A stretch of DNA of 64,000 nucleotides from Tessaracoccus aquimaris (GTDB lineage: Bacteria > Actinomycetota > Actinomycetes > Propionibacteriales > Propionibacteriaceae). Of this stretch, positions 4,241 to 6,274 are shown piece by piece (position 1 is the stretch's first letter; the number at the start of each line of letters is the position of its first letter). The stretch covers positions 1,798,001 through 1,862,000 of the forward strand of contig NZ_CP019606.1 of the NCBI RefSeq assembly GCF_001997345.1. The letters run 5' to 3'. The notes under the pieces are model-generated. The model made no database searches, was not told the origin of the DNA, and saw only the letters and a program-made list of their open reading frames with translations. The translations under genes were made by a program, and so were the position numbers.

Positions 4241-4680
4241 GCGGTCTCGACGGCGCGGCGCCGAGCCACCACGACCGTGCCGAGCAGCAGGTCGGTCAGC
4301 GCGCGGCGATCGGGGCCGACCACCAGGGCCGGGATCACCAGGCACTTCAGCGCGGTGCGCGCGAAGGGCCGCCACCAGCCGAGCGGCTCGCCGTTGAGGC
4401 GAACGATGCCGATCCGGGCGATCAGTTGCCCGAACGAGCCGCCCGTAAGCGCGGTCAGGATGCTCGCCTCGACGAAGTAGACGGTCAGGATCATGAACGA
4501 CTTCCAGCCCGAGCCCGTGACGACCTCCATGCCGAACAGCGCGATCGCGACGATCATGCTCGCAGCCCAGTCGCCGATCATCGCGGCGACGCGGGCCCTC
4601 CAGGATGCAAGCGAGCCCGGCCCCGATTCCGGCAGGCCGATGTTCTGGCCCGGGTACTTCTGCTCTTCGGTGCTCGCCAC
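4237..4680 (-). CDS. RDD family membrane protein
   Basis: 147 residues. The start shows the RDD-family motif RARVAAMIGDWAASMIVAIALF, where the Arg and the Asp in the first membrane segment mark the family. Two more hydrophobic segments follow, and IARIGIVRLNGEPLGWWRPFART matches the conserved second half. RDD proteins are small inner-membrane proteins, some linked to cation/proton exchange; the function here is unknown. Proline and charged residues at the N-terminus (GQNIGLPESGPGS) form a short cytoplasmic lead. Confidence 0.8.
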   Translation of the reverse strand: MASTEEQKYPGQNIGLPESGPGSLASWRARVAAMIGDWAASMIVAIALFGMEVVTGSGWKSFMILTVYFVEASILTALTGGSFGQLIARIGIVRLNGEPLGWWRPFARTALKCLVIPALVVGPDRRALTDLLLGTVVVARRRAVETA

Positions 4681-4791
4681 GCCCGCAGCCTAGCAGCGCG
4701 GCCCCGGCGTCCCCCGGCGTCGATTCCGCCGTCAGTGAACCGTCAGCCTTCGATGGGGCTCGCCCGGCTCGGGTGTGCCAGGGTAGGGGCC

Positions 4792-4860
4792 ATGGACATC
4801 TTCTTCGCCCGCCGCTGGGTCGACCTGCGGCTTCAGGCCAGCGCGATGTGTCTGGGCTGA
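4792..4860 (+). CDS. Putative cysteine-responsive leader peptide (22 aa)
   Basis: Too short for ordinary gene calling. Bases 4792-4860 encode a 22-residue peptide with the pattern RRWVDLRLQASAMC near its end, followed by Leu-Gly and TGA. Actinobacteria carry many 20-30 residue leader peptides with R-R-x-[VI]-D-L, a Ser/Ala stretch and a Cys close to the stop, placed just upstream of sulfur and cysteine uptake or assimilation genes. Ribosome stalling at the Cys codon is thought to sense Cys-tRNA. The next gene, 38 bases on, is a DAACS symporter, the class that includes cystine carriers, which fits. A possible -10-like element (TAGGGG, 4784-4789) lies close to the ATG, so the leader may be leaderless. 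The match is to a remembered motif and has not been tested by search. Confidence 0.65.
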   Translation: MDIFFARRWVDLRLQASAMCLG

Positions 4861-4898
4861 CCGCCCTCCACACGTCCCTCGAAGAAAGAACTCTCTCC

Positions 4899-6274
4899 AT
4901 GTCCAACGCAACTCTTGATCCTGCCGTCACGCCCGAAAGCGACGAACGGCGTCCCCCAAGGCCAAGCCCTTCTACACCCAACTCGGCTTCCAGATCGTCG
5001 TCGGCCTGATCGCGGGCCTGGTGCTCGGATTCGCGGCCATCGCGATCGGGCCCGAGAACCAGGTCGAGAACCCCAACTGGCTCACCACGCTTCTCACCGA
5101 GGTCGGCCGCGGCTACGTGTCGCTGCTCACCGTGCTCGTCATCCCGCTCGTCGTGACTGCGGTGATCTCATCGGTGGCCCGGCTGCGCGAGGTCGCCAAC
5201 GCGGCCCGGCTCGCCGTCCAGACGCTGCTCTGGTTCGCGCTGACCGCGCTCGCCTCCGTCGTCGTCGGGATCGTCGCGGGCCTCGTGACCAAGCCTTGGC
5301 TGACCGCGGGCGTCTCGGCCGACACGGCCGCCGAGCCCGGCAAGGTCGGCGAATGGACCGCGTTCCTGACCGGCCTGATCCCCTCGAACATCTTCGGGCT
5401 GGGCGTCAAGGTGACCCAGACCGACGCGGGCGTCACCGCCTCCCCCAGCTTCTCGATCCTGCAGATCCTGCTGATCTCCATCGCGCTCGGCGTCGCGGCA
5501 CTGAAGGTCGGCCCGAAGGCCGACACCTTCGTCGCGTTCGCCGAGTCGGCGCTCGCGGTCGTGCAGAAGGTGCTGTGGTGGATCATCCGCCTCGCCCCCA
5601 TCGGCACCGCCGCTCTGATCGGCAAGGCCATCGTCACCTACGGCTGGAGCTCCCTCGCCTCGCTGGGCACCTTCGTGCTCGCGCTGTACGCCTCGCTGCT
5701 CGTGGTGTGGCTCGTGGTGTACCCGCTGGTGCTGAAGCTCAACGGCCTGAGCGTCAGGCAGTTCTACCGCAACGTGTGGCCCGTGATCTCGCTCGGCTTC
5801 GTCACCCGCTCCTCGATGGGCGTGATGCCCGTCACGCAGCAGGTCACCGAGCGGAACCTGGGCGTGCCCCGCGGCTACGCGTCGTTCGCCGTCCCGCTGG
5901 GCGCGACCACCAAGATGGACGGCTGCGCCGCGATCTTCCCCGCGCTCGCGGCGATCTTCATCGCGCAGTTCTACGGCATCGAACTCAACGTGACGCACTA
6001 CCTGCTGATCGCCTTCGTCGCAGTGATCGGCTCTGCGGCCACCGCGGGCACCACCGGCGCGACCGTGATGCTGACGCTCACGCTGTCGACGCTGGGCCTG
6101 CCGCTGGCGGGTGTCGGGCTGCTGCTTGCGGTCGAGCCCATCGTCGACATGGGTCGCACCGCGCTCAACGTGACCGGCCAGGCCCTGGTGCCAGCCATCG
6201 TCGCCAAGCGTGAGGGGATCCTCGACAAGGCCGCCTACGACGCGAAGCCGAGCTTCACCGGCGTCGCTGTCTGA
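4899..6274 (+). CDS. Dicarboxylate/amino acid:cation symporter (DAACS), cystine a likely substrate; frameshifted
   Basis: The ATG at 4899 opens [18 protein letters not shown], but the transporter body ([16 protein letters not shown] onward) is in another frame. Adding one C to the CCCCC run at 4953-4957 joins them into a 458-residue protein. Without repair the first start in the transporter frame is the GTG at 5021, which would cut into the first helix. About eight hydrophobic segments and two re-entrant signatures are visible: [12 protein letters not shown] and the later [27 protein letters not shown] is the DAACS core with substrate and cation sites. A leader peptide of the cysteine type lies just upstream, so cystine uptake is a fair inference; C4-dicarboxylates or glutamate are alternatives. 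Confidence 0.85.

Follow-up and report, generated by a model that had tools for sequence, protein, structure and literature searches.

The window (the complete 64-kb stretch of DNA analysed here) contains a gene for a symporter of the DAACS family (PF00375), preceded by a short open reading frame (ORF), MDIFFARRWVDLRLQASAMCLG, of 22 codons plus a TGA stop; the features of this locus and their coordinates are collected in Table 1. The short ORF includes the motif RRWVDL, its sole Cys codon is TGT (codon 20), and its stop lies 38 nt before the ATG of the symporter (4899-4901). The original prediction had described a 22-residue frame with RRWVDL, a single late Cys and a 38-base gap to the symporter, and all of these elements were confirmed. 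Out of 553 short ORFs in the 64 kb (12-45 amino acids, counted by stop, both strands), this putative leader was the only one to match the pattern R..[VIL][DN][LYMFIV].{3,9}C; mononucleotide-shuffled sequences gave 0.15 matches per strand (20 shuffles). A search of positions 4600-5100 against Rfam produced no match.

Table 1. Features of the leader-symporter locus. Coordinates are positions in the window; numbers with a sign are relative to the leader start.
Feature	Position	Strand	Basis or remark
Leader promoter region: -35-like TTTG (-37 to -34) and -10-like ANNNT (-11 to -7)	4748..4785	+	30-locus alignment
Leader ORF MDIFFARRWVDLRLQASAMCLG	4792..4860	+	stop TGA; conserved in relatives
ttcttcg, leader codons 4-6, candidate arm hiding the symporter ribosome-binding site	4801..4807	+	exact complement of cgaagaa, 4880-4886
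RRWVDL codons, conserved peptide motif	4810..4827	+	Asp and Arg each kept in 29/30 closest loci
TGT, candidate sensor codon, 13 codons past Arg 7	4849..4851	+	145 TGT vs. 1 TGC
cgaagaaag, candidate symporter Shine-Dalgarno sequence	4880..4888	+	assigned from its position
DAACS (PF00375) symporter gene	4899..6274	+	start 4899, transporter frame open 4919-6274, apparent frameshift between

The carrier scored 315.1 bits against PF00375 (cut-off 27.9), was the only match to itself at E 0.001 in its own genome (one contig, 3.93 Mb) and is followed by glnA. Its start region was irregular: the ATG at 4899 is out of the transporter frame and its own frame stops at 5009; a stop at 4916-4918 bounds the transporter frame on its upstream side, and the first start codon within that frame is GTG 5021. 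The 38-nt gap predicted for the symporter start thus holds for ATG 4899, but this ATG does not belong to the transporter frame. Since an in-frame start occurs 36-111 nt past the leader in all 29 other members of the set of 30 closest loci, the region 4899-5020 looks to carry a one-base insertion or deletion near 4953-4960, perhaps in the C run at 4953-4957. Elsewhere in the same genome, a thymidylate-kinase-like gene (recognized by eye), upstream of a second leader (locus L031, described below), also looks frameshifted, at a G run. Errors in base count during assembly could account for both breaks.

The 30 closest loci (L001-L030, L001 being the window) comprised 28 from the genus of the window and two from another genus of the family. 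The strict leader was present in 27 of them, and a degenerate form occupied the same place in the other three: L008 (WVDN), L020 (WADL) and L025 (WAEP). Lack of conservation of the small ORF in related genomes had been named as grounds for giving up the prediction; the ORF was conserved throughout this set. The pattern of substitutions indicated selection at the peptide level: Asp was kept in 29 loci, encoded by GAT (15) or GAC (14), Val in 28 with three different codons, and Arg in 29 with five. Because the search with the leader-peptide model NF042934 (see below) had missed the window leader, a profile was built from 14 genus leaders, and it matched in 30 of the 39 genomes of the genus. The nine genomes without a leader were exactly the nine without a detected carrier. 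In the 38 genomes tested for both (G197, which has a leader, was outside the carrier search), 29 had leader and carrier, nine had neither and none was discordant (Fisher 6e-9, related genomes not being independent).

At greater distance, the leader preceded 21 of 34 further orthologues (33 from other genera, one from the genus of the window; the set is without two fragmentary ones, G078 and G085), and the strict leader was absent before all 26 distant DAACS paralogues examined (out of 43 such matches), a difference with a Fisher value of 2e-7. No leader match was found on the reverse strand of the orthologue and paralogue regions. Of 521 named relatives of the carrier, the best 80 were scanned: 25 had the strict leader and none of the 80 had it on the reverse strand. 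At least six of these 80 loci are on the same contigs as loci in other sets. The leader-bearing named relatives belonged to Propionibacteriaceae, Cellulosimicrobium, Rhodococcus, Nocardioides, Blastococcus, Nocardiopsis, Corynebacterium and others. When the loci without the strict leader (13 of the 34 family orthologues, one of them, L051, truncated at a contig end, and 55 of the 80 named loci) were rescanned with a relaxed pattern, a likely leader emerged in one of the 13 and two of the 55 (L216 and L222); the relaxed scan also gave two chance-like TGC matches in the 55, and likewise two on the reverse strand. Since the strict leader is missing from these orthologues and named loci, it is, to judge from their sequences, not essential to the carrier.

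Neither the strict nor the relaxed scan found a leader before the named carriers of Devosia, Agrobacterium, Rhizobium, Aquamicrobium and Arthrobacter. Close relatives of the carrier without the leader were seen in Rhizobiales (Devosia, Agrobacterium and Rhizobium; L213, L226, L227, L237, L241, L242 and others), a distribution suggestive of its transfer between phyla.

The sole Cys codon of the window leader belongs to a pattern that extended through all the leader sets. In 150 distinct leaders, Cys was located 13 codons past the Arg in 146, encoded by TGT in 145 and by TGC in one, and the other Cys codons of the same 150 leaders were 159 TGC vs. 48 TGT (Fisher 3e-55, a value that gives the scale only, related sequences not being independent). 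These 150 leaders result from a merge that omits the named-carrier set and ten of the 53 family leaders mentioned below, with duplicates dropped and leaders of identical codons 0 to 14 counted once. Arg, and very nearly Asp, were anchors fixed by construction in this count, and the measured quantity was the codons; protein-level searches cannot favour either Cys codon. As for the spacing, any Cys from +9 to +15 was accepted in the search of the closest loci, so that the constant distance there is not a product of the search, and the NF042934 matches favour the spacing of the model. L025, which has Leu for Arg and hence no Arg anchor, stands outside the counts on 150 and 130 distinct leaders and outside the 29-locus pairing analysis; its Cys codon is TGT.

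The same codon recurred in each set. In the closest loci, Cys at +13 was TGT in 30 of 30 (27 by search and the three degenerate ones by eye); the Cys codons of the 30 carrier ORFs were 29 TGC and one TGT. In 53 further family leaders, Cys at +13 was TGT in 48 of 48, and the other five had TGT at +14 (three leaders), TGC at +14 (one) or TGT at +15 (one). This set excludes the repeat symporter leaders L097, L098, L100, L112, L114, L116 and L120, as well as L106, L161 and L165, in which a short leader was not readable at first; L106 does hold a leader, with TGT at +13. The class-level samples had TGT in 30 of 30 and in 59 of 60 leaders (exception L338), and the named carrier loci with a strict leader in 25 of 25. 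The rule held in 21 of the 22 families of the class sample; the one family that departs from it is represented by a single leader. GC content at third codon positions was 0.04 at +13 vs. 0.68-0.98 at registers 0 to 12 (130 distinct leaders). One tRNA-Cys, with anticodon GCA, was found in the genome (RF00005 and ARAGORN; 30 of 47 tRNA loci read). Both Cys codons are decoded by the same tRNA, and reading of UGU by a GCA anticodon needs a G-U wobble pair; because of this wobble, UGU may be the slower and more cysteine-sensitive codon of the two.

The nearest described family is NF042934 (cis_reg_atten, “putative leader peptide”), which the window leader resembles in its RxxVDL, its late Cys and its position before orthologous symporters; RxxVDL with a late Cys in a short ORF is present in the window leader. 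Its score was nevertheless 13.4 bits against a cut-off of 27, which by the rule of the model excludes it from the family, and it was not among the six matches that the model gave in its own genome. Leaders of orthologous symporters in other genera passed the cut-off (L097, 37.7 bits; L098, 36.9 bits; L100, 34.7 bits), and 12 of the 14 genus leaders matched at E <= 0.1. The window leader differs in having W at a position that His or another residue fills in most distinct leaders, and in its single Cys. Since it scores below the cut-off while leaders at the orthologous position pass, it is best called a divergent variant at the orthologous place. Matches to NF042934 at E 1e-4 occurred in 180 of 296 class genomes sampled. 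A related model, NF042933 (Ms5788A family Cys-rich leader), weakly matched four of the 14 genus leaders.

The genes behind leaders with the same motif were mostly tied to sulfur. When 20 downstream proteins (from 25 loci) were compared with Pfam, 14 had a sulfur- or cysteine-tied domain: TauE/SafE (L031 in the genome of the window, L123 and L166), sulfite/nitrite reductase (NIR_SIR; L099 and L164), sulfur transport (PF04143, Sulf_transp; L104), the cysteine-synthase-like PALP (L121, and L282 as second gene), CbiX (L122), rhodanese (L198), TauD (L303), PAPS reductase (L306) and cysteine dioxygenase-type proteins (PF05995; L101 and L108). The remaining six were three solute-binding proteins (L167, L301 and L339), a DUF4395 protein (L124), a GST-like protein (L115) and a DAACS carrier outside the family (L311). 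Since the same-motif leaders elsewhere precede sulfur genes, the assignment of the window ORF as a putative cysteine-responsive leader is well supported. The proposed match to actinobacterial leaders of cysteine or sulfur genes was therefore borne out by the motif and by the genes that follow it, including TauE/SafE in this genome; as to the leader type, the exception is the window leader itself, which stays under the NF042934 cut-off. The cysteine dioxygenase cases (L101 and L108) do not suit a pure cysteine-starvation switch, which would not be expected to induce them, and the leader may be wired with the opposite sign in some operons.

The second leader of the genome, MTPLRQRILTARRAVDYMRVSSALCRA (L031, 1477-1560; contig 3896253-3896336), has TGT at +13 and sits 37 nt before the TauE/SafE gene.

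Leaders with runs of Cys codons were also present in the class sample (L172-L177), and are of the poly-cysteine kind. Leaderless poly-Cys ORFs are reported to be cysteine-responsive attenuators in mycobacteria (Canestrari 2020, as cited in PMC9094748, PMC9031893 and PMC13236596). The likeness to these ORFs is seen in class-level loci such as L172, MLTKRRAVDLCRVAGCCCCCCSC, which has RxxVDL and TGT at +13. The window leader is also like them in its Cys codon and its place just before a gene, the symporter then being a putative sulfur gene, and a leaderless start, probable here, would be a further likeness; the window leader differs from them and from NF042933 in having a single Cys without a Cys run, and a DAACS carrier downstream. 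It also resembles the leaders of cys operons and cbs which Seliverstov 2005 (PMC1262725) describes from Mycobacterium, Propionibacterium acnes and Bifidobacterium longum. These too are short ORFs in which Cys codons come late, and in actinobacteria they have no conserved terminator. Those leaders differ in that their Cys codons form runs and that the genes behind them are cys operons or cbs; no symporter case is included in the passages that describe them. Similarly, uORFC-8-2 before cysS of Rhodobacterales has Cys codons in a short upstream ORF, but belongs to alphaproteobacteria, with UGC dominant and a terminator stem plus U run after the ORF (PMC8632094). No report of such a leader on a symporter, or of a UGU rule, was found in the literature searched; Canestrari 2020 may mention the latter.

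Upstream of the leader, the alignment of the 30 loci showed conserved T at -36 (25 loci) and -35 (22), A at -11 (14), T at -7 (20) and C at -1 (28). Since the leader starts a few bases past this promoter-like pattern, whose spacing in relatives would place the first transcribed base on the leader ATG or beside it, the transcript is likely to be leaderless. The -10-like element suggested just upstream of the leader had support in the alignment, but the copy in the window is poor: a sigma-70 consensus scan of the window gave no site at the leader promoter, and the window's own copy is degenerate. The idea of translation from a leaderless mRNA fits the spacing kept in relatives. A GAAC-like element was also observed at -44 to -41, just upstream of TTTG (G in 22, A in 16, A in 13 and C in 21 of L001-L030, n=30); it could be the site of a regulator or activator.

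Pairing between the leader and the region of the symporter start was examined in a duplex test of 60 segment/offset combinations. For the first 27 nt of the leader, pairing was strongest with the ribosome-binding region of the carrier they precede, as compared with the regions of other carriers, at offset -12 (p 0.0025 for 30 loci, p 0.0035 for 12 representatives). The middle of the leader paired with the upstream gap at -36 (p 0.0027 for 30 loci; 0 of 4000 permutations for the representatives), and p was also below 0.01 on the 30 loci for the 5' end at -36 (p 0.0053) and for the 3' end at +18 (p 0.0063), the last being outside the model. This signal of pairing between the leader and the ribosome-binding site is modest and suggestive only; its pattern agrees with a nested hairpin in which the Cys codon lies toward the tip. 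A search for intrinsic terminators at 4650-5050 found none, so the locus does not have the form of a classical terminator attenuator, and 26 of the 30 leader-symporter gaps were without a run of four T.

The original prediction had considered the substrate not evident from the transporter sequence, marking the carrier as a cystine importer by its leader. A hint does exist in the protein: identity was 34% to TcyP of E. coli, which is annotated as a cystine/sulfocysteine symporter, vs. 29% to GltP, 26% to DctA and 27% to SstT, and carrier and TcyP have a Gly-Cys pair in common (KMDGC vs. GQNGC). The tree, however, gave the window clade a long branch of its own and placed E. coli TcyP elsewhere, with long branches, and membership of the carrier in TcyP was dropped for that reason. 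Import of cystine is plausible, TcyP being the nearest of the four E. coli carriers, and the tree leaves this part of the prediction conditional; sulfocysteine, cysteate and cysteine sulfinate are candidates too. At two sites, KMDGC and NVTGQ in the carrier (window 4961-6274), the aligned aspartate transporters read NMDGT and NVTGD, and it is possible that the carrier uses a different coupling ion.

Considered together, the 22-codon ORF is likely to be translated, probably from a leaderless mRNA, and to act as a cysteine-sensing leader with control over the symporter; it probably switches the importer on at cysteine shortage. When cysteinyl-tRNA is short, the ribosome would pause with UGU in the A site and the RxxVDL segment inside the exit tunnel. 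This stalled ribosome, and others waiting behind it, would prevent the leader from base-pairing with the ribosome-binding site of the symporter (leaving the arm at 4801-4807 open), and the freed site would allow translation of the carrier and import of cystine or another sulfur amino acid. With plentiful cysteine, the leader would be finished fast and the ribosome-binding site hidden again. The same translation-attenuation logic is given in PMC13236596, with reference to cysteine genes of M. smegmatis.

A wider reading, tentative and given somewhat less than an even chance, is that all RxxVDL-type cysteine leaders of Actinomycetes are one register-locked device, in which RxxVDL in the exit tunnel sets a pause that is decided at an obligate UGU 13 codons on: a one-codon cysteine sensor, made of codon plus nascent peptide, that would have been placed before many sulfur genes and here before a symporter.

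Other explanations would account for part of these data. The leader could be an arrest peptide, with RxxVDL in the tunnel and in fixed register with Cys, that stalls on free cysteine or a related metabolite and not on tRNA charging; TnaC, which answers to tryptophan, is a comparison case (PMC10941005). Such a peptide would explain why Cys is at +13 in all 30 closest loci although +9 to +15 was allowed, and why the peptide is kept while its codons vary, since counting of codons alone would not require the peptide to be conserved; the cysteine dioxygenase-type genes would also suit a sensor of cysteine excess. The conserved peptide could, however, merely tune a codon-driven pause, and most of the identified downstream genes make or import sulfur compounds and should be off at high cysteine, so that an arrest peptide is considered rather unlikely. 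Control by transcription attenuation, in which Rho-dependent (or intrinsic) termination ahead of the symporter would be set by where the ribosome stands on the leader, is less probable still. Rho sites are C-rich, as are the gaps (882 C vs. 424 G over 30 loci). Rho was also proposed for terminator-less cys leaders by Seliverstov 2005 (PMC1262725). Against it, the gaps of 36-59 nt in 18 of the 30 loci leave scant room for a Rho site, no terminator-like site was seen at 4650-5050, and the 5' end of the leader pairs with the ribosome-binding region.

The invariant U of TGT might instead be an RNA-structure or protein-recognition feature unrelated to decoding speed, the link between TGT and decoding being comparative and one tRNA reading both Cys codons. 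This U was the least paired base within 20 nt on either side (mean 0.35, 29 loci), and RNA pairing was accordingly not supported as the cause of the TGT rule; the high third-position GC of registers 0 to 12 around it and the spread of the rule over 21 of 22 class-sample families also speak against this reading, and a structural or recognition feature appears unlikely. For the carrier, it is possible, though doubtful, that the leader responds to cysteine and the carrier takes an acidic amino acid, either sulfur-containing (sulfocysteine, cysteate or cysteine sulfinate) or ordinary. The best solved relatives of the carrier by sequence are aspartate transporters, its DMGRTALNV is common to TcyP and nearly so to GltP (DMARTALNV), TcyP itself is annotated for cystine and sulfocysteine, and the tree separates the window clade from TcyP; the higher identity to TcyP and the Gly-Cys pair of KMDGC common to both weigh on the other side. 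Finally, short ORFs are common, with 553 in the window, but a functionless ORF arising by chance has a negligible probability beside the conservation of the leader and its co-occurrence with the symporter.

Beside the known cysteine leaders, the window leader is a divergent variant, on a type of target that the literature searched did not show. For a group of carriers named in family libraries by superfamily only, a cysteine-sensing leader of this kind points to a probable role in sulfur amino-acid supply, drawn from regulation alone. The near-absolute one-codon rule (145 TGT vs. 1 TGC) is striking, and makes the question of sensing by a single Cys directly testable through one synonymous base or a one-codon shift.
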